Assembly (NCBI RefSeq): GCF_010548525.1
Contig: NZ_JAAGMG010001350.1
Location: 1 to 64,000 of the forward strand
Source of the DNA: Streptomyces sp. SID14478
Lineage (GTDB): Bacteria > Actinomycetota > Actinomycetes > Streptomycetales > Streptomycetaceae
Reading direction: 5' to 3'
Length of the DNA: 64,000 nucleotides
The notes below the pieces were generated by a model. It had not been told where the DNA came from and ran no database searches. It was given only the letters and a program-made list of their open reading frames with translations. The position numbers and the translations under genes were made by a program. Shown one piece after another: positions 6,952 through 32,292 of this stretch (within the stretch, counting starts at the first letter, position 1; the number at the start of each line of letters is the position of its first letter).

Positions 6952-7086
6952 GCGGCGCCGGATACCCCGGAGTTGGGGCCGCACACGCCGGTGACCCGAA
7001 TGCGCGGTGCACGGATTGTGCGCGGGTGGGGACTCGGCCCGTTGGGGGATCAACGTCACCCCGGTCGGCGCAGGTAGCCTCCAGGC

Positions 7087-7980: not shown

Positions 7981-8062
7981 GCCCTGAACGACCGAGCTGT
8001 CCTTCTCGCTCTCCCGGCTTCAGGCGCCACCGATGTCCGGTCAGTGCCGGAGCGGCGGTCGT

Positions 8063-8095
8063 GGGGGCCCCTGGCCTTGATGGTCCGGGGCCCCC
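8063..8095. terminator. Bidirectional hairpin terminator
   Basis: Nine perfect base pairs (GGGGGCCCC with GGGGCCCCC) plus a partial inner helix, between the convergent F420 oxidoreductase (stop 7980) and the minus-strand hypothetical gene (stop 8139). Confidence 0.6.
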
Positions 8096-8138
8096 GACGG
8101 CTGTTGCTCCACCGCTGTTCCTGGGGCGGCCGTTCCAC

Positions 8139-8432
8139 CTACTCCATGCTGTCAACACGCTTGAGGCCGACGGTGATCTGGTCCAGCACTGCGTCGGGCG
8201 ACAGGTCGTAAGCCTGCGCTGCCACACCCACGCCCAGTTCCGCAGCGTGTGTCATGGCCCAGAGCAGCGCGCCATGGGCGGACGCGTCGTCCCCCTGGGA
8301 CCTTCTCAAATGTTCCACCGCTGCGCGGAGTTGGGCATCGGATGCGGGGGTGTATCCATCACAAAGGGAGCCGCGCAGAAGTGCCAGTGCCTCCAGGGCG
8401 GCCGGTGAATGGGACTGGCTCTCAAGGTGCAT
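8139..8432 (-). CDS. Small hypothetical protein (97 aa)
   Basis: Start ATG 8432 is chosen because GAGGAGAG lies about eight bases upstream; the frame is open 27 codons further without a good site. The product is soluble and helical, with no signal peptide. The C-terminal HAAELGVGVAAQAYDLSPDAVLDQ resembles the ending of the 113-residue protein at 283-624. No known family. Confidence 0.6.
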   Translation of the reverse strand: MHLESQSHSPAALEALALLRGSLCDGYTPASDAQLRAAVEHLRRSQGDDASAHGALLWAMTHAAELGVGVAAQAYDLSPDAVLDQITVGLKRVDSME

Positions 8433-8807
8433 GCGAGTTCCTCTCCTCACTGGTGGACCACCAAGTGCCGTTCGGTGCAGCCGGATCTCGTGGCTGCGGC
8501 GGGTGCTGGGCACCCGGCTGTTCCGCTCCGATGCCCGCGCATGCCCTGGCCACGCGTCGTGTCACTCGTGAGGTGGGTGGCGTCGGGGAGCAAATCGAAT
8601 GCGGGTGCCGTGTACGTACGGAGGTCCAGCCGGCCGGTGCTGAAATACGAGTGAGGCGCGGGCGGCCGGGGATGTTGTCGCATCATTCGGCGCGCAGAAC
8701 ATCGCCACTGTCAGCGGAGGGGTTCTTGGGGGGGCGTCGTGCGCTGCGTCGGACTTCTGCGACCGGGAAGGATTGTACACGTGTACATTGAGTGCTCTAC
8801 TGACTCA
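8433..8807. other. Intergenic region with palindromic control elements near its right end
   Basis: About 375 bases between the divergent small hypothetical gene and the secreted-protein gene. Only the right end is structured: a 14-base palindrome (8774-8787) followed by an inverted repeat that reaches the start codon (8787-8809). Confidence 0.5.
8774..8787. promoter_or_regulatory. Perfect 14-base palindrome, probable operator
   Basis: TGTACACGTGTACA, uninterrupted dyad centred 27 bases before the start codon at 8808. The form fits a dimeric repressor site; none of the adjacent regulators can be tied to it from sequence. Confidence 0.6.
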
Positions 8808-8809
8808 AT
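8787..8809 (+). promoter_or_regulatory. Inverted repeat overlapping a start codon
   Basis: ATTGAGT and ACTCAAT, 7-base arms with a nine-base spacer; the right arm contains the first two bases of the ATG at 8808. No Shine-Dalgarno sequence is present between them, so the element could be a second operator or an RNA hairpin limiting translation. Confidence 0.45.
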
Positions 8810-10088
8810 GCGACTACGTACAAGCCTTGTTGGCGCGGTGGCCGCCTGTGCCCTGACGCTCTCCGCAGCCCCGGGACCGGCCGCCGCTACTGTCTCCGTC
8901 AGTGGCCCGATCGCCCCCGCGTGCAGCTGGAGCGAGCGGGGTTACCGCTACGACAACTCCGCCTATCCGGAGACCGCGGCCCGTTACTGGATCATGCGGT
9001 TCAAGAAGCAGGCCGGGCTCACCATCCGCGTCAACGGCCAATACCCCGAGGCCCGTTACAGCTCGCTCAACGTCTATGACTCCACCTCGTCGAGCTTCAC
9101 CACGGACGGCGTGAGCTCCGGGCTCGTGGACCACCGCATCGACCCCGACCCCGGCAGCACCAACCCGTGGCGGCAGAAGGCCGCACCGGGCGGTCACTTC
9201 ACCGTGCGAGTCATCGACGCCTCCGCCGCCGGCAAGCGCAACACGCTGCCCCTGGCGCCCGCAGGCACAGCGGAACTGACCGACGGGTCCCTCATCTTCC
9301 GTACCTATCTCGACTCCGCGCCCGTCCAACTGCCGGACGTCACCTTCGAGAAGGACGGCCGGAACGTCGCCGTGCCACTGTGCTCCGACGCCCAGGCCCC
9401 GCAGACGGCGGAGCGCCCGGCACCCGCGACCGACCGGGTGCGGGCGATGGAGACCGGCAGCGCACGCCCGGCGGGGACCAGCGGCGCTGCGCCCGTGGTG
9501 GAGTTCAGCCGCAAGTCCGGAGCCGGGCAGTATCCGAACGCGGACGCCGCCTACCTCTCCGCGCGGTTCACCCCGCCGCCCGCGGGCCAGGTGCTCGTGG
9601 TCCGCGGCAAGGCGCCGGTCGCTCTTCGCGGTGGTCATCCGCAGCCCTGGCCCACCCGCCGCGCCGACGTCCGCTTCTGGTCGCTGTGTGACAACGTGGT
9701 CACCCCGCCGGGTCCGGTCGTCGTCAATCCGCTCCCGGGCGGCGGCGTGGACACGGGGTGCCGCAACGACGAGCAGATCGAGGTCGCGCAGGGCGGCACG
9801 TACACCTTCGTCGTCGGCACCGAGGCGCAGCGTGCCGCCGTCGACCGCATCCCCGGCGCCACCTTCGTGCCCGTCTCCGCCGCCCACCCGAACCTCACGC
9901 ACCTGCTCGTGCTCCGGCAGCTCATCGCGGCCGAGCACTTCCGCGGCGCGATCCAGAACGTGCCGCTCGACAGCCAACCGGCCGACGCCCAGCGGCTGAT
10001 GGGGTCGTACTATCCGCAGGCCTCCTACTGCTCCCTCGACAGTCTCCTGCACAAGCGGCACGGCCGGACCTGCGCCCCGGCCCACTGA
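8808..10088 (+). CDS. Secreted protein of unknown function
   Basis: 426 residues from ATG 8808, chosen because a typical signal peptide (MRLRTSLVGAVAACALTLSA) begins there; the upstream extension to 8739 adds no sensible sequence. The mature protein has paired motifs seen in a family of uncharacterised actinobacterial exported proteins: ARYWIMRF, GQYPEARYSSLNVYD, and DPGSTNPW in the first half, then YLSARFTPPPAGQVLVVRGK and VRFWSLCDN in the second, suggesting a two-fold repeated beta-rich architecture. Several Cys may form disulfides. No catalytic motif recognised. Expression is probably controlled through the palindromes at 8774-8809. Confidence 0.8.
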   Translation: MRLRTSLVGAVAACALTLSAAPGPAAATVSVSGPIAPACSWSERGYRYDNSAYPETAARYWIMRFKKQAGLTIRVNGQYPEARYSSLNVYDSTSSSFTTDGVSSGLVDHRIDPDPGSTNPWRQKAAPGGHFTVRVIDASAAGKRNTLPLAPAGTAELTDGSLIFRTYLDSAPVQLPDVTFEKDGRNVAVPLCSDAQAPQTAERPAPATDRVRAMETGSARPAGTSGAAPVVEFSRKSGAGQYPNADAAYLSARFTPPPAGQVLVVRGKAPVALRGGHPQPWPTRRADVRFWSLCDNVVTPPGPVVVNPLPGGGVDTGCRNDEQIEVAQGGTYTFVVGTEAQRAAVDRIPGATFVPVSAAHPNLTHLLVLRQLIAAEHFRGAIQNVPLDSQPADAQRLMGSYYPQASYCSLDSLLHKRHGRTCAPAH

Positions 10089-16225: not shown

Positions 16226-17962
16226 CTAGCCTTGCGGCCGGCCCCGGTCCTCTCGGGCCGGGGTGCGCAGGGCGATGAGGGTGATGTCATCGCGGGTGTC
16301 GCCGAGTTCGGTGGCGAGCTGTGCGCACAGGCGCGGCAGCGGCAGGTCCTGGTGGGTGTCGAGGTGTTGGCGCAGACGGGTCATGCCGGTGTCGATGGGC
16401 TGGGAGCGGGACTCGACGAGGCCGTCCGTGTAGAGGAGCAGGGTGCTGTTGGGGGGCAGGGTCATGCGGGCCGTGGGGCGTTCCTTGGTGGGGCGCAGGC
16501 CCAGGAGCATGGAGTGGGGCCCGGCGAGGTAGCTGCTGGGTTCGCCGACGGTCAGCAGCAGGGGTGCGGGGTGGCCCGCGACGGACCACGCCAGGTCCCA
16601 TGTTCCGTCCGTGTCCTGGTGCAGGCGGGCGAGGACGACGGTGGCGGAGTCGGCGAGGGTGAGGTGGGCCTGTGCGGTGTCGAGCCGCCGGAGGATCTGG
16701 CCGGGTGTCTCTTCGGGGCGGTCGACGGCGAGGGCGCGGAGCATGTTGCGCAGTTCGCTCATGCGGGAGGCGGCCTGGATGTCGTGACCCGTGACGTCGC
16801 CGATCACCACGGCGAGGTCGCCGTCGGGCAGCGGGAAGGCGTCGTACCAGTCGCCGCCTACTTCGGCGGCCTGCTGGGCCGGCTGGTAGTAGGCGGCCAG
16901 CTCGAGGCCGGAGACGGCGGGCAGGTCGGTGAGGAGGGCTTGCTGGAGGGTGACGGCGATGTCGGCCTGGGCGGCGTGCAGGCGGGTGTTGTCCAGCCCG
17001 AGCGCAGTGCGGCGGGCGACTTCGTCGGCGAGGATGCGGTCGGCCTCATTGAACGGGGGGCTGGCCTCGGCCCGTACCAGGGTCAGGGCCCCGAGTGTCT
17101 CGGCGCGCAGGCGCAGCGGGACGATCAGGACGTCGTGTGCCTCCACCAGACTCATCAGGTCGGTGTCCGGTCCTGCCGCGGGGCTGGGCTCGGGCGCGGG
17201 AAGGTGCTGGCCGGCACCGCCCCGGCGCACGCAGTCCAGCGCGGTCAGATGTGCGGGGTGTTCGGGCGGGTCCGTCTGGGAGATGGTGGCGGGCAGTGTC
17301 CCGGGGGTGTGGTGCGCCCATGCCGTACGGGTCATGCCGCGGCCCTCGGCAAGGTGGATCAGGGCGGTGTCCGCGAGGCGGGGAACGAGCTGGCGTACCA
17401 GGCGGTCCAGGGCGCGTTCCGCGTTGAGGGTGCTGACGATGGCCAGGGTCAGCTCGCTGAGCCAGGAGATCTCGGCGAGGTCGTACTCGGCCTGTTCCCG
17501 CATGGTCTCGCTGTGCGTGTAGCGGTCGGCACGCTGGTCGGCGCGCTCGCGCTGGGCGGAGGCGTCGTGGAAGACGACGACCGCACCGGTGCCGTGCCCG
17601 GCGGAGGGCGGCAGGGGAGCGGCGGACCACCACACCGGGAGGGGAGTACCGTCGGCGCGCATCAACACGGCCCGGTCGCCGCTGATCCGCTTGCCCTGCG
17701 CCACGTCACTGAGGACCGGCCGCTGCTCGTGCAGGCCCTCAGGGTTTCCGGCCGCCGGGTTGAGGGCTTCGTGTGCGTTGATGCCCAGGAGGGCTCCGGT
17801 GTCGTAGCCGAGGAGGCGTTCGGCCCACGGGTTGCAGGCGATCACGACGCCCCGGGCGTCGACGGCGTAGACGCCTGCGCCGGCAGCGTCGAACAGCGCG
17901 GACATCAGTGCTCCGTCGGCCAACGGGACGGAAGGGGCGTCCGTTTCAGGGGAACTCTCCAC
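16226..17962 (-). CDS. PAS-GAF-PP2C (SpoIIE-type) serine phosphatase
   Basis: 578 residues: PAS domain about 17-135 (VYAVDARGVVIACNPWAERLLGY), helical linker, GAF about 170-330, then SpoIIE/RsbU-type PP2C phosphatase about 350-570. Metal-binding acidic motifs are intact: GGDWYD (369-374), GDVTGHD (388-394) and the C-terminal TRDDITL. These enzymes dephosphorylate STAS antagonists so that they can capture an RsbW-type kinase and free a sigma factor. The GTG start at 17962 has no clear ribosome site. A STAS gene (18033) lies immediately upstream on the same strand, a likely substrate. Confidence 0.92.
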   Translation of the reverse strand: MESSPETDAPSVPLADGALMSALFDAAGAGVYAVDARGVVIACNPWAERLLGYDTGALLGINAHEALNPAAGNPEGLHEQRPVLSDVAQGKRISGDRAVLMRADGTPLPVWWSAAPLPPSAGHGTGAVVVFHDASAQRERADQRADRYTHSETMREQAEYDLAEISWLSELTLAIVSTLNAERALDRLVRQLVPRLADTALIHLAEGRGMTRTAWAHHTPGTLPATISQTDPPEHPAHLTALDCVRRGGAGQHLPAPEPSPAAGPDTDLMSLVEAHDVLIVPLRLRAETLGALTLVRAEASPPFNEADRILADEVARRTALGLDNTRLHAAQADIAVTLQQALLTDLPAVSGLELAAYYQPAQQAAEVGGDWYDAFPLPDGDLAVVIGDVTGHDIQAASRMSELRNMLRALAVDRPEETPGQILRRLDTAQAHLTLADSATVVLARLHQDTDGTWDLAWSVAGHPAPLLLTVGEPSSYLAGPHSMLLGLRPTKERPTARMTLPPNSTLLLYTDGLVESRSQPIDTGMTRLRQHLDTHQDLPLPRLCAQLATELGDTRDDITLIALRTPAREDRGRPQG

Positions 17963-18032
17963 CCGTCACATTGTGCCGAACCATTGCCGTGCGGCAAATA
18001 TCGCCGGGGGACGCCGGGTTCACCAGCGCTTT

Positions 18033-18422
18033 TCACCCGTCCACCGATCCGGTGGCGGAGATGACGTCCGGGAACATTTCCACCACCGCGGCCAGGCCGG
18101 TCAACTCCAGGAGCCGCTGCACCTGTTCTCCCGCACCGGCCAGGCGCACGCCTCCGTGCCGGGCTTCCGCGGCGCGCATCGCGTGGACCAGGACCCCCAG
18201 CCCCGCGGAGTCCATGAAGGTCACCGCCTGCAGATCCCAGACCAGATGGGCGCGGTCCGCGGCGATCAGTTCGTCCACGGCTTCGCGCACCGCTGGGGAC
18301 TCGGCCAGGTCGATCTCCCCGGCCAGGGTCAGCACCGCCCATGCCCTGGGATCGGAGGGCCACGTCACGCCGGACACCGGGACCCGCACAGTGGCTCTCC
18401 TCGCCTGGAATACACCGATCAT
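18033..18422 (-). CDS. STAS-domain anti-sigma factor antagonist
   Basis: 129 residues from ATG 18422 (GAGG five bases upstream). STAS core: VLTLAGEIDLAESPAVREAVDE, then VWDLQAVTFMDSAGLGVLV, where Asp71-Ser72 begin the canonical DSxGL phosphorylation motif. It should switch between phosphorylated (inactive) and free (kinase-binding) states. The PAS-GAF-PP2C gene follows 70 bases downstream and the REC-PP2C gene lies 150 bases upstream, all on the same strand, so either phosphatase may act on it. Confidence 0.92.
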   Translation of the reverse strand: MIGVFQARRATVRVPVSGVTWPSDPRAWAVLTLAGEIDLAESPAVREAVDELIAADRAHLVWDLQAVTFMDSAGLGVLVHAMRAAEARHGGVRLAGAGEQVQRLLELTGLAAVVEMFPDVISATGSVDG

Positions 18423-18573
18423 CCCACCTCGCCATGATCGGTGCAGGCAGCGGGGCGCGCCGGCGTCGACTCGGCGCCCTGTCGCAGGAGGAGTGAGCAG
18501 GTGACGTCGATGCCGGTCGAGGACCGTGTGGCGGCGCCCCGCGCGTGCGGTCCCCGCGGTCCCGAGGACCTGC

Positions 18574-19812
18574 TCATCGGCCGGGGACCCTAGGCACGTG
18601 TCCGGCTTCGGCGACGGAGGAGCGCTGGTGGGGGATGGCGGGCAGGTCGACCCAGTCCAGGCGCAGGACGGCGAGGTCGTCGGAGTGGCGCCCGGCGTTG
18701 CGTCGGCGTACCTCGGCGATGACCTGGTCGAGGTGTGCGCCGGCGTCCGTGTCGGTGCAGGTGTCGACGATGGGCAACAGTCCTTCGACGCCCAGGCGTT
18801 GGGACGCGTCCTCGTTGTGGCCCTCCACCAGCCCGTCCGTGTAGAGGGTGAGGCTCCCGGACGGGGGGAGCGGAACGTGCGTCGGGGACCAGGTGCACAT
18901 CCCGGGAGCGAGACCCAGGGCCACGCCATGTCCCACGGCGAGTTCCACGGTGCGTCCGCCGGTGGTGAGTAACGGGGCGTGATGGCCGGCCAGGTACAGG
19001 GTGGCCGTGGCGGCCGCGTGGTCGAGGGTGACCAGGGTGCAGGTGGTGAACAGGTCCGAGGAGCTGCGCTCCGCCACGTGCATGTGCTCCAGGAGGCGCA
19101 GGAGGTCCATGCCGCGGTGCCCGCCCAGGGTCAGGGAGCGCCAGGCGATGCGCAGGCACACGCCGAGTGCGGCGGCGTCGGGACCGTGTCCGCTGACGTC
19201 CCCGATGACGGCGTGTATGAGACCGTCCGCGGTCTGGACGACGTCGAGGAAGTCGCCGCCCAGCAGGGCTTGGTCCCGTCCTGGCAGGTAGCGGCTGGTT
19301 GCCTTGATCTGCTCGGAGACCAGCATCGGCTGCGGCAGCAGGCCGCGTTCCAGGCGGGCGTTCTCCTCGGCCCGCAGCCTGTCGGCGCGGAGGTTGGCGT
19401 TGGCGAGTTCGGCCTGCTTGCGGTGGACGGCGTAGCGCACGGCACGCTGGAGCCTGTCCGGGTCCACCTTGCCCTTGACCAGGTAGTCCTGGGCGCCGGT
19501 GGTGAGTGCTTCCACGCCGGCCTGGGACTCGGCGAGGCCGGTGAGGACGATCACCGCCGCGTCGGGCGCCGCCTGGAGGATGGCGTCGACGGCGGTGAGT
19601 CCGGCCGCGTCAGGCAGGTGCAGGTCGAGCAGGACGCAGTCGGCGGTCTGCTCGGCGAGCTTGTGCCGTGCCTCGGCCAGCGTGCGGCAGTGCACCAGGG
19701 AATGGTCGAGGACGGTGTCGACCAAGAGCTCCTCGACGAGGAGGGCGTCGCCTTCGTCGTCCTCGACGAGAAGGATCCGGTACTGCGCCGTGGTCCCGGT
19801 GAGCGCTGTCAT
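18574..19812 (-). CDS. Response regulator-PP2C (RsbU-like) phosphatase
   Basis: 412 residues. Receiver domain 12-125 with acidic pocket VEDDEGD, phospho-acceptor Asp63 (LLDLHLPD), Thr91 and Lys113. A coiled helix (130-160) leads into a PP2C domain with GGDFLD (185-190), GDVSGHG (204-210) and HSDDLAV. The ATG at 19812 overlaps the stop of the sensor kinase gene (ATGA), so the two are translationally coupled and almost certainly a cognate pair: kinase input turns on phosphatase output toward STAS proteins. Confidence 0.93.
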   Translation of the reverse strand: MTALTGTTAQYRILLVEDDEGDALLVEELLVDTVLDHSLVHCRTLAEARHKLAEQTADCVLLDLHLPDAAGLTAVDAILQAAPDAAVIVLTGLAESQAGVEALTTGAQDYLVKGKVDPDRLQRAVRYAVHRKQAELANANLRADRLRAEENARLERGLLPQPMLVSEQIKATSRYLPGRDQALLGGDFLDVVQTADGLIHAVIGDVSGHGPDAAALGVCLRIAWRSLTLGGHRGMDLLRLLEHMHVAERSSSDLFTTCTLVTLDHAAATATLYLAGHHAPLLTTGGRTVELAVGHGVALGLAPGMCTWSPTHVPLPPSGSLTLYTDGLVEGHNEDASQRLGVEGLLPIVDTCTDTDAGAHLDQVIAEVRRRNAGRHSDDLAVLRLDWVDLPAIPHQRSSVAEAGHVPRVPGR

Positions 19813-21392
19813 CTCGGTTCGGATGCTCCGTTGTCGCCCGCTCCCGCGGGAGGCTGAAGGGGAAGGGTGAAGCAGATCGCGGTGCCGTCGCCGTCGACGG
19901 GCTCGATGTCGATCGTGCCGCCGTGGTACTCGACTGTCTTCTTGCACATGGCCAATCCGATTCCTGTTCCCGGATAGGCGTCGCGGGTGTGCAGCCGCTG
20001 GAAGATGACGAAGACCTTCTCGCGGAATTCGGGGGCGATCCCGATGCCGTTGTCGCGGACCGTGAAGTGCCAGTGGTCTTCCTGCTTGCGCACACTGATC
20101 CGGATGTGCGCGGGGCGGTCGGGAGCGCGGAACTTGAGTGCGTTGGAGAGCAGGTTCTGCCACAGGAGTCCGAGCTGTTGCGGCTCGCCGACGACGACCG
20201 GCAGGGGGTCGTGCTCGACGGTCGCGCCCGTCTCGTCGACGAGCACGCTCAGGGAGTCGAGCGCTTGCGCAAGGCTCTGTTCCAGGTCCACCTGTGACGG
20301 TTCGCTCTGCATCCGGCCGACCCGGGAGAAGGCCAGCAGGTCGTTGATGAGGATCTGCATGCGGTTGGCGCCGTCCACCGCGAAGGCGATGTACTGGTCG
20401 GCGCGCTCGTCGAGCTGGTCGCCGTAGCGCCGTTGCAGCAGCTGAGTGAAGCTCGAGATCTTCCGCAGGGGCTCTTGCAGGTCGTGGGACGCGACGTAGG
20501 CGAACTGCTCCAGTTCGGCGTTGGAGCGGCGCAGTTCTTCGGTCTGCTGGTCGAGGAGATCCCGCGCCTGTTCGCTCTGTTCCAGTTCGTGTACGAGCCG
20601 TTGGCGCATCGCCTCGACGTCGGTGGCCAGCTGGCGGAGGTCGGCGGGGCCGGTCGCGGGTACGGCGTGGCCGAACCGGCCGCGTCCGATCTCGCGGACG
20701 GCCGACCCGATGCGGTCCAGGGGCGCGCTCACCCCTCTGCGCAGGGCGTCGAAGATGATGACGGTCACCACGACGAGGAGCAGGGCGATGGCGGTGAAGA
20801 CGATCGTGCGCCATCGCTGCGCCCGGTCGAGGTCCTCGCCGGCCTGTGTGCGAGCCGCACGGAGGTGGTCCTGCTGCACGGCGAGCGCCGCTCGCACGTC
20901 GTCGAAGAGCTGTTTGCCGTCGTCCGTGCGCCGGGCCGCGAGCGCGATGGCGTCCTTGGCGGACGACTCGGCCACGGGGCGGGCCACCCGGCTCTGCCAG
21001 GCGGCCACCTTCGCCCGCACGTCGCGCAGGTCCTCGCGGCCGCTCTTGTCGCCCTGCAGCAGGCCGGTCAGTGAGTCGGTCGCGGTCTTCTCCGCCGACA
21101 GCCCTTGTGTGTAGGGCTGGAGGAACTCGCGACGGCCGGACAGGCCGTATCCGCGTACGCCTGTCTCCTGGTTGACCAGGGCGGTCTCCAGGCGCACCGC
21201 GCTGATCAGGGCGGGGGAGCGGTTCTGCACCACTTGATCGGTGAGTTGGGACGTCCTGACCAGGGCCCACACGCCCAGCGAGCCCAGTGTGACGAGGACG
21301 ACGGCCACGACGGCGGTGCCGCTCATCAGCCAACGCCGGGTCGTCCAGCGGGATATGACCGGCCGCTCACGCGCGGCAGTGCCTTCTCTCAT
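19809..21392 (-). CDS. CHASE3-HAMP sensor histidine kinase
   Basis: 527 residues. Two membrane helices (about 24-45 and 196-216) flank a CHASE3 sensor domain of about 150 residues; then HAMP, a coiled linker, HisKA with His303 in ASHDLQEPLR, and HATPase (LLWQNLLSNALKF, VRDNGIGIAP, GTGIGLAMCKK). The SHDLQEPLR box is that of phytochrome-like kinases that pair with stand-alone receivers. Start ATG 21392 with AGGGA upstream. It is coupled to the REC-PP2C gene and divergent from the small HTH-like gene and response regulator; both receivers may be partners. Confidence 0.93.
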   Translation of the reverse strand: MREGTAARERPVISRWTTRRWLMSGTAVVAVVLVTLGSLGVWALVRTSQLTDQVVQNRSPALISAVRLETALVNQETGVRGYGLSGRREFLQPYTQGLSAEKTATDSLTGLLQGDKSGREDLRDVRAKVAAWQSRVARPVAESSAKDAIALAARRTDDGKQLFDDVRAALAVQQDHLRAARTQAGEDLDRAQRWRTIVFTAIALLLVVVTVIIFDALRRGVSAPLDRIGSAVREIGRGRFGHAVPATGPADLRQLATDVEAMRQRLVHELEQSEQARDLLDQQTEELRRSNAELEQFAYVASHDLQEPLRKISSFTQLLQRRYGDQLDERADQYIAFAVDGANRMQILINDLLAFSRVGRMQSEPSQVDLEQSLAQALDSLSVLVDETGATVEHDPLPVVVGEPQQLGLLWQNLLSNALKFRAPDRPAHIRISVRKQEDHWHFTVRDNGIGIAPEFREKVFVIFQRLHTRDAYPGTGIGLAMCKKTVEYHGGTIDIEPVDGDGTAICFTLPLQPPAGAGDNGASEPR

Positions 21393-21462
21393 GCGTCCCT
21401 AGCCCTTTCATGCGCCTTCGGCCGCATAAAGAGCCGTCGCGGCGACGATACTGTACGCCCTA

Positions 21463-21480
21463 GGACAACAGTTGTTGTCC
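21463..21480. promoter_or_regulatory. 18-base inverted repeat overlapping a -35 region
   Basis: GGACAACAGTTGTTGTCC, perfect 8-base arms around GT. It covers the proposed -35 box (21472-21477) of the plus-strand promoter and lies 70 bases before the divergent kinase gene, so it is well placed to control both directions. Confidence 0.65.
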
Positions 21481-21501
21481 ACATGGATCTCCCCTTATAC
21501 G
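21472..21501 (+). promoter_or_regulatory. Promoter of the HTH-like protein/response regulator pair
   Basis: TTGTTG (21472-21477), 18 bases, TATACG (21496-21501). The first G or A seven to nine bases on coincides with the ATG at 21510, so the transcript may be leaderless or nearly so, in agreement with the weak ribosome site. Confidence 0.5.
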
Positions 21502-21509
21502 GTGGGAGC

Positions 21510-21878
21510 ATGCCTGAAGTCGACGTCACCCCGCCGCGGGGTGAGGATCATGTCGCGGTGCTCGCCGTTCGCGCTCTCGACGAACTCGTGGGCGGCCTCG
21601 AGCCGCATCTCGCATATCCACCGGAACCGGGCACTCGACAGGGCGGTGAGAGTCGGCCCGCGCTGCGGCGCCTGCGCGTCCTGGCTCATCTCGAGAACGC
21701 GGTCAAGGAGTTGGAGTGCGCGGCCGCTCGGGAGGCCGCCGAAGCCGGTGCGGGCTACCCGCAGATCGGAGCCGCATCGCGGCTGAGCCGACAGGGCGCA
21801 CGCCGCCGCTGGCCGGGCCTGATGAATGACAGCGCCAGTCCGTACGCCACCCTCGTTCCCCGGAGCACACAGACATGA
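21510..21878 (+). CDS. Small HTH-like protein coupled to a response regulator
   Basis: 122 residues. The N-terminal 60 residues are acidic; the stretch EDHVAVLAVRALDELVGGLE begins a helical region, and residues around 80-105 (GYPQIGAASRLSRQGARRRWPGL, quoted in part as IGAASRLSRQGARRRW) look like an HTH of the type found in Streptomyces small DNA-binding proteins. Its stop overlaps the ATG of the response regulator as ATGA, so both are made together. It could be the DNA-binding output for that receiver. No named family; call rests on pattern and coupling. Confidence 0.7.
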   Translation: MPEVDVTPPRGEDHVAVLAVRALDELVGGLEPHLAYPPEPGTRQGGESRPALRRLRVLAHLENAVKELECAAAREAAEAGAGYPQIGAASRLSRQGARRRWPGLMNDSASPYATLVPRSTQT

Positions 21879-22306
21879 TCACCACTGCTCGCCCGTACGA
21901 CGTCCTCCTGGTCGAGGACGACCTGGCGGACGCCATGCTCATCCAGGACGCCTTGGCCGAGCGTGGTGGTGCCCGCAACTTCACCCAGGTCGAGGACGGC
22001 CTCGCGGCCCTGGAGTACCTTCGCGACCCCACCCACGCGCAGCCGGACCTCATCGTCCTGGATCTGAACATGCCGCGGATGAACGGCCGGGAGCTGCTGG
22101 CCATCCTCAAGGACGACGTCGACCTCAGGGCGATCCCCGTCGTGGTGCTGACCACGTCGGCGGCTCCGGACGACGTCACCGAGGCCTACCGCCGGCATGC
22201 GAACGCCTATGTCACCAAGCCCGTGAACCTCGAGGACTTCGAGGAGGCGGTCCGCAGCATCGACGCCTTCTACCTGGACACGGCCGCCAAGCTGCCGAAG
22301 GAGTAA
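21875..22306 (+). CDS. Single-domain response regulator (Rcp1-like)
   Basis: 143 residues, receiver domain only. VLLVEDDLADA carries the acidic pair, LIVLDLNMPRMNG the phospho-acceptor Asp near residue 65, LTTSAAPDD the Thr, and VTKPVN the Lys. Stand-alone receivers of this type accept phosphate from kinases with an SHDLQEPLR box such as the divergent CHASE3 kinase at 19809. Made by translational coupling with the upstream HTH-like gene, and followed by the PP2C-B12-STAS operon after a 186-base gap. Confidence 0.92.
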   Translation: MITTARPYDVLLVEDDLADAMLIQDALAERGGARNFTQVEDGLAALEYLRDPTHAQPDLIVLDLNMPRMNGRELLAILKDDVDLRAIPVVVLTTSAAPDDVTEAYRRHANAYVTKPVNLEDFEEAVRSIDAFYLDTAAKLPKE

Positions 22307-22436: not shown

Positions 22437-22461
22437 GCATGTCCTGTGACCACATGGGTAC
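22437..22461 (+). promoter_or_regulatory. SigB-type promoter of the PP2C-B12-STAS operon
   Basis: GCAT (22437-22440), 15 bases, GGGTAC (22456-22461). This fits the published Streptomyces SigB consensus GNNT-N14-16-GGGTAC/T and is identical in both boxes and spacing to the element before the sigma gene (31338-31362). The GTG start lies 32 bases downstream. Confidence 0.7.
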
Positions 22462-22492
22462 CGTGGGAAGTTGCCTGACCGCTTCCTGAAGG

Positions 22493-24196
22493 GTGGTGGG
22501 GGTCCGCGCCTGCGGGTCCCATGTGATGTTCTCCTCCACGGCACGCCAGAGCCCCGCCGGGGTACGGGTACCCGGCCTGGCCCGTGATCCGTACCCGATG
22601 ATGACGGTGGACCGGGCCGGCAGAGTGCTGTCCTGCAACGACAGGGCCGGCGCCCTGTTCCCGGGCGCGCACCGCGGCGTGCCTTTGGCGGACGTGGCTC
22701 CCGCCTGGCTCACCGAGGCACATGCGCGGGCCGTCGACGCCGGCCCCGCCGACGTACTCGCCCCGGTCGGCGGGCTCGTCGGGGAACACAGCGTGGAGGC
22801 ATTCGCCGGCCGGGCCGCGGACGGCGCGGTGTCGTGGTGGCTGGTCGACGACAGCGATCTGCGTTTCGCGCAGGCCGAGTTGAACAGCGAGCGGACTCGC
22901 TCCCGGGTCCTCCAAGAGGTCTCCAGCGAGCTCCTCGCCTCACTGAACGTGGAACGTTGCATGGAGGTGACCGCCCGCATGGCCGCAGAGCATCTCGCGG
23001 ACGCCGCGGTCATCGTGGGCGTCCCCGCCGGCCGGATGTATCCGATCACCCGCTGCAGCACCGGTGGACCGGTGGTGCAGGAGAAACTGGCGCTGAACCC
23101 CGAGGCGATGCCGGGCCTCGCGGAGGCACTGCAGGGGTTTCCTCCGGTGCCGTCCCGCTGGATCGACCCGACGCAGATCCCGGGCTGGGCGGTACCCGCC
23201 CGGTTCCGCGCCGAGGGCGAACAGATCGGGTCGGTGGTGGTCGTGCCGCTGCCCGGACACGGGCTGCCGGCCGGGGCGATCGTGATGATGCGGCACAGCA
23301 GCGAGGCCGCTTTCACCGAGGCCGAGGAGGCGTTCGCGCGACTGTTCGCCGCCCGGGCGGGTGCCGCGCTGTCGGCCGCCCGGATATACGCGGAACAAGC
23401 GCACATCACCGAGGTGCTGATGCGCGACCTGCTCCCGCCGACGCTGGACAGCGTGCGCGGTGTCGACTTCTCCGGCCGCTACCGGGCCTCCGCGGCCAGC
23501 GAGCGGGTCGGCGGCGACTTCTACGACGTCTACCCCGCCGACCGCGACGACGGCGAGACCTTCGCCGTCCTCGGTGACGTGTGCGGCAAGGGTCTGGAAG
23601 CGGCGGTGCTCACCGGCAAGATCCGCAACACCGTCGAGGCGCTCCTGCCGTTCGCAGGCGATCACCTGCGCATGCTCCAACTGCTCAACAACGCGCTGCT
23701 GTCCTCGCACCACACGCGATTCGCGACGCTGGCCCTGGCCTCCGTCCGGCGGGACGGCGACCGCGGCGGCGTGCGGCTCAGGGTGACCAGCGCGGGTCAC
23801 CCGACCCCGCTCGTCGTGCGCGCCGACGGCACGGTCGAGGAAGCGGACACGCGCGGCATGCTGATCGGTGCCCTGCCGACGGACACGCTCAAGGTCACCA
23901 CGGCGCACGTGGACCTCCAGCCGGGGGAGACGTGCCTGTTGTACTCCGACGGCATCACCGAGGCGCACGGCGGACCACTCGGCGACGTCATGTTCGGTGA
24001 GCCGCGCCTGCGCACCGTACTGGCCGGGTGCGCGGGGCTGCCCGCCGAGGCGGTGACGGAACGCGTACAGATGCTCGCCACCCAATGGGTCGACGGCGGT
24101 TCCCACGACGACATGGCACTGCTGGCCATTACCGCACCACGCAACAACCACCTCACAGCGGTGGACGGACATACTCGGGGCAGGTTCACTGCATGA
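22493..24196 (+). CDS. PAS/GAF-PP2C (SpoIIE-type) serine phosphatase, first gene of the B12-sensor operon
   Basis: Up to 567 residues. A degenerate PAS-like segment (about 33-130: PYPMMTVDRAGRVLSCNDRAG), a GAF domain (about 145-300), then PP2C with GGDFYD near residue 340, GDVCGKG, and a final HDDMALLAI, so the metal site is complete. The start is uncertain: GTG 22493 has GAAGGGTG directly before it, and ATG 22526 is another candidate without a site. The last codons overlap the B12-protein gene (ATGA at 24193). Expected substrate: a STAS antagonist, probably that at 25299. Confidence 0.9.
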   Translation: MVGVRACGSHVMFSSTARQSPAGVRVPGLARDPYPMMTVDRAGRVLSCNDRAGALFPGAHRGVPLADVAPAWLTEAHARAVDAGPADVLAPVGGLVGEHSVEAFAGRAADGAVSWWLVDDSDLRFAQAELNSERTRSRVLQEVSSELLASLNVERCMEVTARMAAEHLADAAVIVGVPAGRMYPITRCSTGGPVVQEKLALNPEAMPGLAEALQGFPPVPSRWIDPTQIPGWAVPARFRAEGEQIGSVVVVPLPGHGLPAGAIVMMRHSSEAAFTEAEEAFARLFAARAGAALSAARIYAEQAHITEVLMRDLLPPTLDSVRGVDFSGRYRASAASERVGGDFYDVYPADRDDGETFAVLGDVCGKGLEAAVLTGKIRNTVEALLPFAGDHLRMLQLLNNALLSSHHTRFATLALASVRRDGDRGGVRLRVTSAGHPTPLVVRADGTVEEADTRGMLIGALPTDTLKVTTAHVDLQPGETCLLYSDGITEAHGGPLGDVMFGEPRLRTVLAGCAGLPAEAVTERVQMLATQWVDGGSHDDMALLAITAPRNNHLTAVDGHTRGRFTA

Positions 24197-25302
24197 GCAA
24201 CAACACATTGGTGGACGAAGGGAAGCCGACTCTCGACGAGCTGCGCGAGAGACTCTGGCAGCCCGTGATCGACGGTGACGCGGTCCGTGCCCTCTCCTTG
24301 GTGCGCGCCGCCTGCGCCCCGGACACCCGGGAGCCCGGCCGGTTGCGGGACATCGCGGAGCGCGTCCTGCTGGACGTCATCGCGCCCACGCAGGAGCGCG
24401 TCGGCGTCGAGTGGGCGGCCAACACCATCACCGTCGCGCAGGAGCACGCGGCGACCGCGGTCAACGAACGCTGCGTATCCGCGCTCGCGGACACCTGCGC
24501 GGACGCCTTGCCGGCCACTTCCCGAGGCCGGGTGCTGGTGGCCTGTGTCGACGGCGAGTGGCATGCGCTTCCCGCCAGGCTGGTCGCCGAGGTGCTGCGC
24601 CTGCGGGGCTGGCACGTGGACTACCTCGGAGCGCAGGTCCCCACCGAGCATCTGGTCTCTCACCTGCACCACACCGGCGCCGAGGCGGTGCTGCTGTCCT
24701 CGTCGATCCCCACCCATCTGCCGATCGCGCACGCGGCGATCAGTGCCTGTCAGGCCGCAGGGGTGCCGGTCCTGGCCGGCGGCGCGGCCTTCGGTGAGGG
24801 GGGACGCTACGCGCGGGCGATGAAGGCGAAGTGGGCCCCCGACGCACCGGGAGCGGCCGAGGCGCTCGACGAAGGACTGGGCCGCCCGAGCGTCACGGCG
24901 GCCCGGCTGCCGGACCTGGACCTGCCGCACCTGAACGACCAGGAATACACGATGGTGCGCCGCACCCGGCGGCAGCTGGTCAAGCAGGCGCTCGCCGACG
25001 TCGAAGAGGGCTTTCCCGCCATGCGGGACTACAGCGACTACCAGCGTGAGCGCACCGTCGAGGACATCCATCACATCGTCGCCTACCTGGCCACGGCGCT
25101 GTACGTGAACGATGTCGCCCTGTTCACGACCTTCATGGTGTGGACCGCGGGCATCCTCGAAGCCCGCGGAGTGCCCCGGCACAGTCTCTTTCCGGCGCTC
25201 GACTCCCTGCTGAACCAGCTCAGCGACTTCCCCCGGGCGACAGCCGTCCTCTCCGGCGCCCGCTCCGCCCTCACCATCCCCGGCCCAGGACGCCCCGCAT
25301 GA
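24193..25302 (+). CDS. Cobalamin-binding sensor protein of a partner-switching operon (CarH-like B12 module)
   Basis: 369 residues. Residues about 12-105 form a B12-binding-2 helical bundle with Trp74-x9-Glu84-His85 (WAANTITVAQEH), the motif that caps adenosylcobalamin in CarH/LitR photoreceptors. Residues 112-235 are a Rossmann B12-binding domain with the base-off ligand His124 in GEWHALP (a variant of DxHxxG, the final Gly being Pro127), LSSSIPTHL and GG196-197. Residues 250-369 are an all-helical domain of unknown type (DIHHIVAYLATALYVNDVAL), in place of the DNA-binding domain of CarH. ATGA overlaps link it to PP2C before and STAS after. Light or cobalamin sensing is inferred. Confidence 0.88.
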   Translation: MSNNTLVDEGKPTLDELRERLWQPVIDGDAVRALSLVRAACAPDTREPGRLRDIAERVLLDVIAPTQERVGVEWAANTITVAQEHAATAVNERCVSALADTCADALPATSRGRVLVACVDGEWHALPARLVAEVLRLRGWHVDYLGAQVPTEHLVSHLHHTGAEAVLLSSSIPTHLPIAHAAISACQAAGVPVLAGGAAFGEGGRYARAMKAKWAPDAPGAAEALDEGLGRPSVTAARLPDLDLPHLNDQEYTMVRRTRRQLVKQALADVEEGFPAMRDYSDYQRERTVEDIHHIVAYLATALYVNDVALFTTFMVWTAGILEARGVPRHSLFPALDSLLNQLSDFPRATAVLSGARSALTIPGPGRPA

Positions 25303-25694
25303 CCACTCACCAGGCTCTCCACCTCACCAGCCACCACGCGGACGGCATCGTCACCGTCATGGTCGCGGGGGCCCTGGAGTACGACACCAGCGAAGAATTC
25401 TCGCGGCACACCGCGGCCGCGCTCGCCGCACACCCGGACGCCCGCGTCCTGTCCTTGGACTGTGCCGCTCTGACGCACGTCGACTCCATGGGCCTGGCCG
25501 CCCTGCTGTCCCTGCGTCGCCGTCTGAGCGCCTCGGGTGCCCGACTGCGCATGGAACAACGCCCCGACAGGCTGGACCGGCTCCTCGACCTGACCGGCAC
25601 CCGGGACTACCTGCTGGCTGTCCAGGTACGCACGCGCGCGGAGCGCGAGGGGGCCAGGTCGGCGTACTCGGACGACGCCTCCTCCGACGGCTAG
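25299..25694 (+). CDS. STAS-domain anti-sigma factor antagonist, third gene of the B12-sensor operon
   Basis: 131 residues from ATG 25299, overlapping the preceding stop as ATGA. STAS core VTVMVAGALEYDTSEEF, then LSLDCAALTHVDSMGLAALL: Asp62-Ser63 open a canonical DSxGL site. The C-terminus is an arginine/acidic tail. As the substrate of the PP2C protein encoded two genes upstream it would transmit the B12-protein signal to an RsbW-type kinase (26681 or 30822). Confidence 0.92.
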   Translation: MTTHQALHLTSHHADGIVTVMVAGALEYDTSEEFSRHTAAALAAHPDARVLSLDCAALTHVDSMGLAALLSLRRRLSASGARLRMEQRPDRLDRLLDLTGTRDYLLAVQVRTRAEREGARSAYSDDASSDG

Positions 25695-26260: not shown

Positions 26261-26665
26261 ATGCGTGCGTCGTTGCAGGTTTCCACTCAGGTCGGTCCTG
26301 GACAGGCCGTGCTAAGACTGGCCGGAGATTGTGACGAGGACACCGAGCAGAGTCTCGGCGAGTCGTTGACGAAGGTGCTGGCTCAGGCACCGCCGGTCCT
26401 GGAGATCGATCTCTCGGGTCTGAACTTCGGTGACTCCTCACTCCTGCACGCGCTCCTGCGCGCCTTGCGCGCCCAGGAGTCCCGTCAAGGGCGCCTGGTG
26501 CTGCGCGGCCCGTTGAGTTCAAGGGTGCGGCAGCTGTTCCGCCAGAGCGGCACGATGGGAGTGTTCGAGGACTGCCTCGAAGAGGGTGGGAACGACGGCT
26601 CGCGACGGTCTGGGACCACACGAAGTGCAGGTGGATCGGATGTCGGCGAAGTGGCCGAGTCGTGA
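26261..26665 (+). CDS. STAS-domain anti-sigma factor antagonist (DSxLL subtype)
   Basis: 134 residues from ATG 26261; an alternative GTG at 26222 would add 13 residues. AVLRLAGDCDEDTEQSLGES and the central LEIDLSGLNFGDSSLLHALL carry Asp58-Ser59-Ser60, the phosphorylation site, with Leu in place of the usual Gly. The tail is rich in Ser/Gly/Arg. Sixteen bases before the RsbW-like gene (26681), so the antagonist and kinase are probably made from one transcript, as in classic partner-switch operons. Confidence 0.85.
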   Translation: MRASLQVSTQVGPGQAVLRLAGDCDEDTEQSLGESLTKVLAQAPPVLEIDLSGLNFGDSSLLHALLRALRAQESRQGRLVLRGPLSSRVRQLFRQSGTMGVFEDCLEEGGNDGSRRSGTTRSAGGSDVGEVAES

Positions 26666-26680: not shown

Positions 26681-27115
26681 ATGACCGACACGCGTGAGGG
26701 CGACGACGTTACGCGCACGTCCTCCGGCCCGGGAGAAGGCCTGTTGCTGCTGTCCGCGGCGCAGGCGCGCGCGCAGGTGCGCGAGGTGATGCGACGCTGC
26801 GCCCTGGGCCTCGGTCATGCGACGGTCGCGGAGGAGCGTGTCGCGGACGCGGAGTTGGCCTGCTCGGAACTGCTGGCCAACGCACGTCGGCACGGAGGCG
26901 GCCTCACGCACTTCGCGGTCCGGTGCGAGGGCGCGCATGTGGTGGTGGAGGTCGGTGACCTGAGCAGTGACGTGCCGCTGTCCCCACCGCCGGACCGCCT
27001 GTCGCCAGGAGGCTTCGGCTGGGCGCTGCTGCAGCGCGTGGCGGCGAAGACGTCCGTACGAGTCCGTCCCGACGGCGGCGGCAAGACCATCACGGCTCAT
27101 CTGCCCGTGGAGTGA
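26681..27115 (+). CDS. RsbW-like anti-sigma factor / serine kinase (HATPase_c)
   Basis: 144 residues from ATG 26681 with GGGAGG upstream. GHKL ATPase motifs: N box ELACSELLANARRHGGG, a G1-like VEVGDLS and G2 box GGFGWALLQRVA. Such proteins either bind a sigma factor or phosphorylate a STAS partner. Located downstream of a STAS gene and one of two kinases in the island; the second (30822) has the same HGGG and GxGW features. Confidence 0.9.
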   Translation: MTDTREGDDVTRTSSGPGEGLLLLSAAQARAQVREVMRRCALGLGHATVAEERVADAELACSELLANARRHGGGLTHFAVRCEGAHVVVEVGDLSSDVPLSPPPDRLSPGGFGWALLQRVAAKTSVRVRPDGGGKTITAHLPVE

Positions 27116-30232: not shown

Positions 30233-30308
30233 ATGCACCGAGTGCTCGCATCCGGCTCTGTCACACCCGGCAGCAGCGACGAGCGCCGATGTGCCAAGGT
30301 ACGGAGTC

Positions 30309-30665
30309 ATGACATCCCACCGAGTCGACACACACGTGAAGCGGAACGAGCGCACAGCGATAGTCGTGCTGGGCGGCGAGGCCGATCTGCATGCCACGGG
30401 GCAGGTCGTCGGAGCGCTGCAGGAGGCACTGCAGGATGAGGACACGGACGCGACGCTGATCGATCTGTCCGGGCTCACCTTCGCCGACAGCGTGCTGCTC
30501 AACCAGCTGCTGACCGCACACGCCGACCATGAGGCGAAAGGCAGACCCGTGCTCCTGGCCGGCCCCCTGAACCCTGCTGTCGGGCGCCTCTTTGAAATCA
30601 CCGGCACGGATGCCGTGCTGCCCTTGGTCGACGACGTGGAGACAGGGCTGCGCCGGCTTCATTGA
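30309..30665 (+). CDS. STAS-domain anti-sigma factor antagonist (DSxLL subtype)
   Basis: 118 residues from ATG 30309. AIVVLGGEADLHATGQVV and LIDLSGLTFADSVLLNQLL with Asp60-Ser61; C-terminal GPLNPAVGRLFEITGTDAV. Like 26261 and 27428 it has Leu where canonical antagonists have Gly after the site. The second RsbW-like gene (30822) follows 156 bases downstream and the sigma gene after that, so this is the antagonist nearest to the sigma factor. Confidence 0.88.
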   Translation: MTSHRVDTHVKRNERTAIVVLGGEADLHATGQVVGALQEALQDEDTDATLIDLSGLTFADSVLLNQLLTAHADHEAKGRPVLLAGPLNPAVGRLFEITGTDAVLPLVDDVETGLRRLH

Positions 30666-30821: not shown

Positions 30822-31220
30822 ATGAACGCTCCTGTGATGGAAGCGGATCGCGTGACCTGTCCCGAGGCCCGGAATCGGGTCAGGACCGCGCTCGAACCGC
30901 TGTGCGCGAAGCTGCCGCCTGCGCAGGCGGAGCGGCTGCGCCAGGACGCCTGCCTGGTGACCAGTGAACTCGTCACGAACGCGATGCTGCACGGGGGCGG
31001 CATCGAAGACTTCCATGCGTACCTCGACGGGAAGGTGCTGACCGTGCGCGTGCGTGATCACAGCACCAAGCCGCCGACGCCGCTGCCCCGGGCCCCGGGC
31101 AGCGGCGGTGGGTACGGATGGCTCATCATCCGCCGACTCAGCACCCACCTCGACATCCAGCTGGAAGCGCACGGCAAGACCGTCACCGCTGATTTCGATC
31201 CGGAGCTGATGCCCGTCTGA
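30822..31220 (+). CDS. RsbW-like anti-sigma factor / serine kinase (HATPase_c)
   Basis: 132 residues from ATG 30822. N box LVTSELVTNAMLHGGG, G1-like VRVRDHS and G2 box GGGYGWLIIRRLS. As the gene directly before the sigma factor (202-base gap), it is the most likely anti-sigma factor for it, with the STAS protein at 30309 as its antagonist. The gap carries a SigB-type promoter, so sigma has its own start while the switch genes precede it. Confidence 0.9.
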   Translation: MNAPVMEADRVTCPEARNRVRTALEPLCAKLPPAQAERLRQDACLVTSELVTNAMLHGGGIEDFHAYLDGKVLTVRVRDHSTKPPTPLPRAPGSGGGYGWLIIRRLSTHLDIQLEAHGKTVTADFDPELMPV

Positions 31221-31337: not shown

Positions 31338-31362
31338 GCATACCCGCCCGAGCAGGGGGTAC
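31338..31362 (+). promoter_or_regulatory. SigB-type promoter of the sigma gene (autoregulation)
   Basis: GCAT (31338-31341), 15 bases, GGGTAC (31357-31362), 61 bases before the sigma start codon. Fits the SigB consensus and indicates positive autoregulation; identical boxes and spacing occur at 22437-22461. Confidence 0.75.
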
Positions 31363-31422: not shown

Positions 31423-32292
31423 ATGACTACCGTGATGGCACCCGGGCACACGGAGCAGACGGCCTCACGGACAGCGGAGAGCCTGATCGAGCGCGCCTAC
31501 GCCGATCCGGCATCGATCGCCCCCAAGGACGCCCGCGAGGTGGGCAGGCACTTCTTCGACCGGCTCACGCAGCTCGAAGAGGGCACGCACGAGTACCAGT
31601 ACGTACGCAACGTCTTGATCGAGATGAACCTCTCCCTCGTGCAGTACGCGGCCTCCCGCTTCAGGCACCGCGGGCCGCAGGAGATGGAGGACATCGTCCA
31701 GGTCGGCACGATCGGGCTGATCAAGGCGATCGACCGGTTCGAGCTGACGCGCGAGGTCGAGTTCACCTCCTTCGCCGTGCCCTACATCACCGGTGAGATC
31801 AAGCGGTTCTTCCGTGACACCACCTGGGCCGTGCACGTGCCGCGCCGTCTGCAGGAGGCCCGGGTCGAGCTGTCCAAGGCCACCGAAGAACTGCGCAGTC
31901 GCCTGGGGCGCACGCCCACGACCCAGGAACTGGCTGACGTGATGCAGCTGCAGCCTGCCGAGGTCGCCGAGGCGCAGAAGGCCGTGAACGGCTACAACGC
32001 CGTGTCCCTGGACGCTGCCGTCATGAGCAAGGACGACGAGTCCGACACCGCGCTGGCCGACTTCATCGGCTTCGACGAGGAGCGCTTCGAACTCGTCGAG
32101 AACTTCCACGCGTTGGCCCCGCTGATCGCCGATCTCGACGACCGCGACCGCATGATCATCCACCAGCGGTTCGTCGAGGAGCGCACGCAGCAGGAGATCG
32201 CCGACACGCTGAACTGCTCCCAGATGCACGTGTCGCGTCTGATCTCCCGCATCCTCAAGAAGCTCCGCACTGCTCTCGTGGACACCGAGTAA
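31423..32292 (+). CDS. SigB/SigF/SigG-family RNA polymerase sigma factor
   Basis: 289 residues. Region 2 about 60-135 (NLSLVQYAASRF, EDIVQVGTIGLIKAIDRFE, FTSFAVPYITGEIKRFFRD), region 3 about 140-215 (VPRRLQEARVELSKATEEL, TPTTQELADVM) and region 4 (LDDRDRMIIHQRF, TQQEIADTLNCSQMHVSRL). It belongs to the Streptomyces group of stress and development sigma factors controlled by RsbW/RsbV partner switching. Preceded by GGGG and a SigB-type promoter; followed by a 19-base-pair terminator. Which of the several Streptomyces paralogues it is cannot be decided here. Confidence 0.95.
   Translation: MTTVMAPGHTEQTASRTAESLIERAYADPASIAPKDAREVGRHFFDRLTQLEEGTHEYQYVRNVLIEMNLSLVQYAASRFRHRGPQEMEDIVQVGTIGLIKAIDRFELTREVEFTSFAVPYITGEIKRFFRDTTWAVHVPRRLQEARVELSKATEELRSRLGRTPTTQELADVMQLQPAEVAEAQKAVNGYNAVSLDAAVMSKDDESDTALADFIGFDEERFELVENFHALAPLIADLDDRDRMIIHQRFVEERTQQEIADTLNCSQMHVSRLISRILKKLRTALVDTE

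Follow-up and report, generated by a model that had tools for sequence, protein, structure and literature searches.

Organization of the locus

The 64,000-nucleotide stretch of DNA analysed here (positions 1-64,000 of contig NZ_JAAGMG010001350.1 from Streptomyces sp. SID14478; hereafter the window) carries, at positions 22437-25694, an operon whose middle gene encodes a stand-alone photocobilin (Pcob), as judged by its family, its chromophore residues and its predicted fold. Photocobilins are a recently described protein family with solved structures (8j2w, 8j2x, 8j2y) (PMC10979010). Reading of the open reading frames (ORFs) in the window gave three plus-strand genes, encoding a PP2C-type phosphatase, Pcob and a STAS protein, which overlap at two ATGA junctions (Table 1).

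A preliminary description of this DNA had already named a PP2C gene, a gene for a 369-residue B12-binding protein and a STAS gene joined in this way, and both its coordinates and its two junctions are confirmed. The range that it gave opens at position 22437, which does not coincide with the beginning of the PP2C gene: a match to a SigB-type promoter begins there, and the first start codon of the PP2C frame is GTG 22493. Alignment with homologues favours ATG 22526, which is the probable start of the phosphatase.

Table 1. Features of the photocobilin operon and its surroundings, in window positions
Feature	Position	Strand	Evidence
SigB-type promoter match GCAT-N15-GGGTAC, upstream of operon	22437..22461	+	Motif scan
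PP2C (SpoIIE-type) phosphatase, with GAF and possible PAS-like N-terminal domain	22493..24196 (TGA)	+	Pfam, alignment, AlphaFold2
Photocobilin (Pcob), ATG start, 369 residues	24193..25302	+	Pfam, PDB sequence match, residue alignment, AlphaFold2/Foldseek
Pcob residues 17-98, four-helix cap (B12-binding_2), W74/E84/H85	24241..24486	+	Pfam, residue alignment
Pcob residues 112-200, Rossmann B12-binding domain, H124 (lower ligand position) and H153	24526..24792	+	Pfam, residue alignment
Pcob residues 240-361, photoglobin (predicted biliverdin-binding) domain, D291 and W317	24910..25275	+	PDB match, alignment, AlphaFold2; no Pfam match
STAS anti-sigma-factor-antagonist-like protein (P0003), ATG start, 131 residues, D62-S63-x-G	25299..25694	+	Pfam, pattern
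Second STAS protein, possible wider partner-switch set	26261..26665	+	Pfam (scanned from 26264)
HATPase_c_2, RsbW-like kinase/anti-sigma candidate	26681..27115	+	Pfam
STAS of rsbV-rsbW-sigB-like set	30291..30665	+	51% identity across 104 residues with a STAS close to the C58 sigma gene
HATPase_c_2, RsbW-like kinase/anti-sigma candidate of the same rsbV-rsbW-sigB-like set	30822..31220	+	Pfam, BLAST
SigB-type promoter match GCAT-N15-GGGTAC, upstream of sigma gene	31338..31362	+	Motif scan
SigB/F/G-type sigma factor, candidate output	31423..32292	+	Profile match, BLAST, tree

The middle protein

Pfam recognized the B12-binding_2 and B12-binding domains of Pcob and found nothing in residues 201-369. 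Compared with the PDB by sequence, the protein matched best 8j2w (E 1.7e-73) and 8j2x (2e-73), in both cases over query residues 55-360, with 8j2y third (4.5e-34); according to their PDB titles, these entries are the photocobilins SasPcob and AbPcob. CarH entries ranked after them (4e-10 to 6e-9) and covered query residues 56-225 only. The AlphaFold2 model of Pcob (mean predicted local distance difference test score 91.3, predicted template-modelling score 0.88) aligned in Foldseek with 8j2w/8j2x over 348 columns at a target template-modelling (TM) score of 0.91-0.92, and with CarH over 200-230 columns only.

Pcob and SasPcob share 145 of 297 aligned residues. All seven chromophore residues of SasPcob (W61, E71, H72, H108, H137, D270 and W296) are identical in the window protein (W74, E84, H85, H124, H153, D291 and W317), including the bilin contacts D270, W296 and H137, and Pcob carries both the W-x9-EH motif (written W-(10)x-EH in PMC10979010) and the E/DxH motif. 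Since the match to 8j2w/8j2x, the fold model and the seven conserved residues all point the same way, the C-terminal helical domain is, by homology, a biliverdin-binding globin.

These results refine the CarH-like label given to the protein in the preliminary description. Trp74-x9-Glu84-His85 and His124 in GEWHALP had been quoted correctly, and the claimed lack of a MerR head agrees with our Pfam scan, which returned no MerR or other DNA-binding or helix-turn-helix match at E ≤ 1, with about 16 residues preceding the cap. A CarH-type B12 module tied to a PP2C and a STAS protein is indeed present, but the label misses the second chromophore domain: the reported 120-residue helical C-terminal domain exists and is, by its match to 8j2w and by AlphaFold2 and Foldseek, a photoglobin rather than an unknown tail. 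In view of the absent DNA-binding head and the photocobilin match over residues 55-360, a plain CarH relative was set aside. The residue following W74 is Ala75, so that the second His of the bis-His light state, which in TtCarH is H132 and follows the Trp, is absent.

We also considered an ordinary corrinoid carrier or a methyltransferase-linked B12 protein of the MtbC/MtaC kind. NCBIfam models of corrinoid proteins do match Pcob, all below their cut-offs, and this candidate was set aside as extremely improbable: the strongest NCBIfam match is to CarH (2.6e-14; 53.2 bits, itself far under the cut-off of 400), the photocobilin match spans both the B12 and the globin regions, and a PP2C gene is the conserved neighbour (neighbours were scored throughout for PP2C, STAS, HATPase, response regulator and sigma genes only).

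Conservation of the chromophore residues

We aligned Pcob with 95 other sequences, 83 from Streptomyces and 12 from elsewhere. W74, E84, H85 and H124 are identical in all 94 sequences that extend far enough to be compared there, the remaining one being a fragment (L167); conservation of the W-x9-EH motif had been set beforehand as a test of the preliminary reading, which came through it. D291 is kept in 75/83 Streptomyces sequences and 10/12 others, W317 in 69/83 and 12/12, and H153 in 71/83 and 4/12, respectively.

One Streptomyces subgroup (L173-L178 and L181) carries Phe or Val in place of D291 and Phe in place of W317 while keeping the B12 residues, and may represent a B12-only version of the photocobilins. 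Its members retain the PP2C gene and have no adjacent STAS gene, and for this reason PP2C, rather than STAS, looks like the constant partner of Pcob. A link between the loss of D291 and a loss of heme oxygenase was considered and failed, as all seven subgroup genomes have a heme oxygenase match (G349, G452, G344, G394, G437, G385 and, as a weak partial match only, G471).

The same subgroup bears on the idea that Pcob senses cobalamin supply, that is, whether adenosylcobalamin (AdoCbl) is bound or not, with the globin domain serving a structural role and light none. Retention of PP2C after the loss of D291 and W317 would fit this idea, as would the report that AbDPcob is less active as an enzyme once AdoCbl alone is bound, and that its bilin occupancy is low, at ~20% (PMC10979010). 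However, W74, E84 and H85, which form the adenosyl pocket of the light response, are invariant among the homologues reaching them, and the bilin contacts listed in PMC10979010 are all present in the window Pcob. We therefore regard pure cobalamin sensing as improbable.

As for the supply of chromophores, the window's genome encodes a heme oxygenase and a cobalamin adenosyltransferase. A heme oxygenase match is present in 181/199 Streptomyces genomes; being nearly universal in the genus, the enzyme is permissive rather than supportive of a bilin-binding Pcob. Four of the 75 genomes with Pcob have no such match (G339, G404, G435 and G451).

The candidate PP2C and STAS partners

The upstream gene product matched SpoIIE with 133.8 bits in Pfam, and GAF with 25.5 bits against a cut-off of 22.4. 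PAS_4 fell far under its cut-off (E 0.075). The AlphaFold2 model of the phosphatase shows a small alpha/beta domain at about residues 34-119, ahead of GAF, and in Foldseek PAS-GAF phytochrome modules appeared at a query TM score of 0.22-0.26, ranked below PP2C structures. Thus, in the PAS/GAF-PP2C architecture first proposed, GAF and PP2C are borne out and an N-terminal PAS domain is plausible. Five aspartates, D342, D362, D486, D539 and D540, which we take to be the metal-site residues, are invariant in 25 aligned sequences.

The operon STAS protein has D62-S63 in the D[ST]xG pattern, the Ser/Thr of which is presumably the phospho-site. The pattern occurs in 58 of 61 STAS proteins encoded next to Pcob, one of these matches (L084, described below) being out of register by eye. 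The window also encodes candidates for an RsbW-like kinase (26681 and 30822) and for the sigma factor (31423), none of them overlapping the operon.

Conservation of the gene order

We searched two draws of genomes, 296 from the phylum and 199 from Streptomyces, with a profile built from 29 Pcob homologues. In the phylum draw 35 genomes matched at E ≤ 1e-20, many of them through the B12 part alone, and in the genus draw 75 matched at E ≤ 1e-40. Neighbours were read at 84 places in Streptomyces: one in the window, two at additional Pcob copies of its genome, four in genomes shared by the phylum and genus draws, and 77 at further places of the genus draw. Together they cover every genus-draw Pcob place except three fragments.

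A PP2C gene lies directly upstream of Pcob, on the same strand, in 82/84 places, and the two genes overlap by exactly 4 nucleotides in 75. The other seven junctions consist of gaps of 19, 19, 28 and 45 nucleotides and overlaps of 8, 8 and 172 nucleotides, the last in a frame-split locus (L179). The two exceptions are the disrupted fragment L167 and L180, in which the Pcob frame enters another protein and the PP2C gene ends 128 nucleotides upstream of Pcob but failed the adjacency rule. Given just 31 SpoIIE-type PP2C matches in the 9.07-Mb genome of the window strain, this adjacency is far beyond chance. Among 36 named loci that partly overlap the 84 places, 31 have the 4-nucleotide overlap, and the junction is unreadable in L029 and L044.

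A STAS gene comes next after Pcob in 61/84 places, in 50 of them with a 4-nucleotide overlap. It is adjacent in 60 of the 70 places whose Pcob is at least 50% identical to that of the window, and in 1 of the 14 below 50%. The search for a conserved PP2C-B12-STAS triplet suggested in the preliminary description therefore upheld the PP2C part almost everywhere and the STAS part in those 61 places but not in the rest. Outside Streptomyces, a PP2C gene adjoins Pcob in 4 of 12 loci read (L087, L090, L093-L102), namely L087, L090, L093 and L101, all from one class. Six plasmid records contain a Pcob match, and one of the two viewed has the order PP2C-Pcob-STAS.

No ORF combining PP2C and Pcob was seen among the matches listed for the smaller locus sets, the larger set being unscanned for fusions. 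The first section of the L180 frame (reoriented 6998-9583) encodes the cap and an incomplete Rossmann domain of a photocobilin, and the remainder a long protein of no relation to it, a pattern that resembles a rearrangement. In Streptomyces sp. GKU 895 (L044:6992-8084) the photocobilin frame is split into ORFs of 153 and 200 residues. On the plasmid of Streptomyces sp. SGAir0924 (L196:4983-8952), gas vesicle genes follow a Pcob homologue and a SapB/AmfS-type lanthipeptide locus is close by.

Possible link to SigB-type sigma factors

In a quick tree with Shimodaira-Hasegawa-like approximate likelihood ratio test (SH-aLRT) support, the window Pcob (P0002) groups with L084, L139, L164, L165 and L166 (SH-aLRT 100). 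L084 is a second Pcob copy in the window's genome, on contig C1181, where one overlapping run joins the genes of PP2C, Pcob, a degenerate STAS protein and a SigB-type sigma factor. The STAS remnant, between Pcob and sigma with 4-nucleotide overlaps, is shortened and, as judged by eye, has its phospho-site Ser replaced. In L139, a sigma gene starts 70 nucleotides past the STAS stop of a PP2C-Pcob-STAS set. The order is PP2C-Pcob-STAS-HATPase-sigma in L146 and sigma-HATPase-PP2C-Pcob-STAS in L122. Overall, a sigma gene lies within 9 kb of Pcob in 9/84 places, against about 2.2 expected from the density in the window's own genome (Poisson 4e-4, with related loci treated as independent).

About 5 kb downstream of the window operon, a STAS, an HATPase and a sigma gene (30291, 30822 and 31423) follow one another in the gene order reported for S. 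coelicolor rsbB-rsbA-sigB (PMC8346170). The window sigma factor is 79% identical to the one of the C1181 photocobilin operon over a 268-residue BLAST match and 74% over 289 aligned columns; when the sigma factor of the third Pcob contig (C58) is included, the ranges are 79-80% by BLAST and 74-77% by full alignment. The genome has 13 SigB/F/G-type sigma genes over cut-off and 70 HATPase_c_2 matches. On another contig (C1482:5166-7001), two SigB/F/G-type sigma genes stand in tandem.

We scanned the window for the SigB-type motif GNNT-N14-16-GGGTAY, the exact form of which is our assumption, and found five occurrences on both strands, two of them before the operon (22437) and before the sigma gene (31338). 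The N15 form gave 4 matches against a shuffle mean of 1.57, with at least 4 in 10 of 100 shuffles. Under a first-order Markov model, the joint chance of a motif in both upstream stretches is about 6e-5. Elements of the motif appear in PMC8346170.

A putative photocobilin-gated partner switch

Considering the above results, we favour, as the probable though far from certain explanation, that Pcob acts via the coupled PP2C and STAS proteins on an RsbW-like kinase and thereby frees a SigB-type sigma factor, most likely that encoded at 31423-32292. In the dark, Pcob would bind AdoCbl via H124, with the adenosyl group held by W74, E84 and H85 at the dimer interface, and the C-terminal globin domain would hold biliverdin in a pocket with D291 and W317. 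Upon illumination with green light (via B12) or red light (via biliverdin), the Co-C bond would break and the dimer would change, as reported for SasPcob. Direct contact between the proteins would most likely relay the change to PP2C, whose gene is translationally coupled to Pcob and stays beside it also in places that lack an adjacent STAS gene. Light may either activate or inhibit the phosphatase. The PP2C would dephosphorylate the operon STAS and/or other nearby STAS proteins, and the dephosphorylated STAS would bind the RsbW-like kinase and release the sigma factor.

A more specific version, which we put forward only tentatively, is a visible-light-gated, self-amplifying stress response, in which the two-chromophore Pcob gates the PP2C switch with PP2C as its direct target, and the freed sigma factor transcribes its own gene together with the Pcob operon.

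A number of observations weigh against the proposed switch. Adjacent STAS genes are absent in 10/70 closer and 13/14 more distant Streptomyces homologues, L164-L166, members of the window Pcob's closest group, have neither STAS nor sigma gene adjacent, and the STAS of the C1181 photocobilin operon is degenerate. No sigma gene was found within 9 kb of available DNA in 75/84 places. In the sigma tree, the window sigma factor pairs with another C1181 sigma (85/83), not the operon-encoded one. The promoter motif occurs upstream of PP2C in 7/80 places and in antisense in 10/80 (0-1 in shifted windows), and was absent from the stretch examined before 11/11 other sigma ORFs in fetched loci. PP2C was not seen beside Pcob in 8/12 loci read outside Streptomyces, nor is one annotated alongside the SGAir0924 plasmid homologue (59.7% identical). 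Finally, heme oxygenase shows no clear association with Pcob: by cross-count of two scans, which by their handles drew on the same 199 genomes and of which the Pcob scan listed its negatives in part, its frequency is similar in genomes with Pcob (71/75) and without (110/124). G451, which carries the fullest gene set (L122), has no heme oxygenase match.

Some of these points would suit another explanation, in which Pcob is a photocobilin whose STAS and PP2C partners act on a non-sigma target, such as another STAS/HATPase network or an enzyme, the nearby sigma genes being coincidental. The many places lacking a sigma gene and the STAS-less distant homologues argue for it, as do the numbers of sigma genes and HATPase_c_2 matches in the genome, with which chance neighbours occur. 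Against it stand the four places where the gene set contains or adjoins a sigma gene (two of them with an HATPase gene between, and two from the closest group of the window Pcob) and the excess of sigma neighbours over expectation. We consider a non-sigma target rather unlikely and retain the sigma-releasing switch as the preferred explanation.

Relation to known systems

According to PMC10979010, the AdoCbl of SasPcob is converted by green light (through B12) or red light (via biliverdin) and the light state is monomeric. Stand-alone photocobilins, when added in vitro, make a separate enzyme more or less active, and their role is called less clear. The study also includes a genome-neighbourhood analysis and, from a STRING network, suggests that STAS, SpoIIE and PP2C proteins are partners of the Saccharothrix photocobilin. 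The family, the fold and the STAS/SpoIIE/PP2C link proposed for SasPcob are thus already in print, and the earlier remark that no established description of the combination was known is in that respect wrong. The conservation of the gene pair, like the sigma-containing operons and the STAS-less subgroup, was not found in the text of PMC10979010 available to us; the 2022 photoglobin paper (Schneider et al.) may describe such neighbourhoods. Among the papers listed in the open-access literature searched, none describes a B12-PP2C-STAS system except PMC10979010, and no light, cobalamin or partner-binding test was found for the window Pcob or a Streptomyces relative.

The closest known protein, SasPcob (Saccharothrix syringae, stand-alone; 8j2w, 8j2x), shares with the window Pcob the domain order, the seven chromophore residues and the predicted fold. 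The window Pcob differs in coming from Streptomyces, with an operon read directly, its ATGA overlaps and a nearby sigma set, and in that its chromophore binding is predicted. AbDPcob (Acidimicrobiaceae, 8j2y) likewise combines B12 and globin modules, but it is fused to a diguanylate cyclase and has a His at the place of Asp270, where the window Pcob has Asp and no fused enzyme (PMC10979010). CarH/LitR proteins share the B12 cap and Rossmann domains and the W-x9-EH and ExH motifs; unlike them, the window Pcob has no MerR DNA-binding head, possesses a photoglobin domain and carries Ala75 after the Trp. RsbP/RsbU-type PP2C switches and S. coelicolor rsbB-rsbA-sigB (PMC8346170) offer a parallel to the PP2C, the STAS antagonist-like protein and the candidate RsbW-like kinase and SigB-type sigma factor of the window, and the difference lies in the putative input, which here is a photocobilin.

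Other genes in the window

A second signalling cluster (16226-22306) lies just upstream of the operon, with PAS-GAF-PP2C, STAS, response regulator-PP2C and CHASE3 histidine kinase genes on the minus strand and one single-domain response regulator gene on the plus strand. Further away, an 873-residue protein of the penicillin-amidase family is encoded on the minus strand (60173-62794).

Implications

The operon pairing of a predicted B12-plus-bilin sensor with PP2C and STAS proteins suggests that light could tune the Streptomyces stress response. The conserved coupling to PP2C, together with operons running into a sigma gene, names a concrete candidate target and output for stand-alone photocobilins. 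If the proposed switch is correct, the stress sigma factors of Streptomyces would gain B12/bilin light sensing as a further input, and a red-light-addressable phosphatase switch would be on offer.

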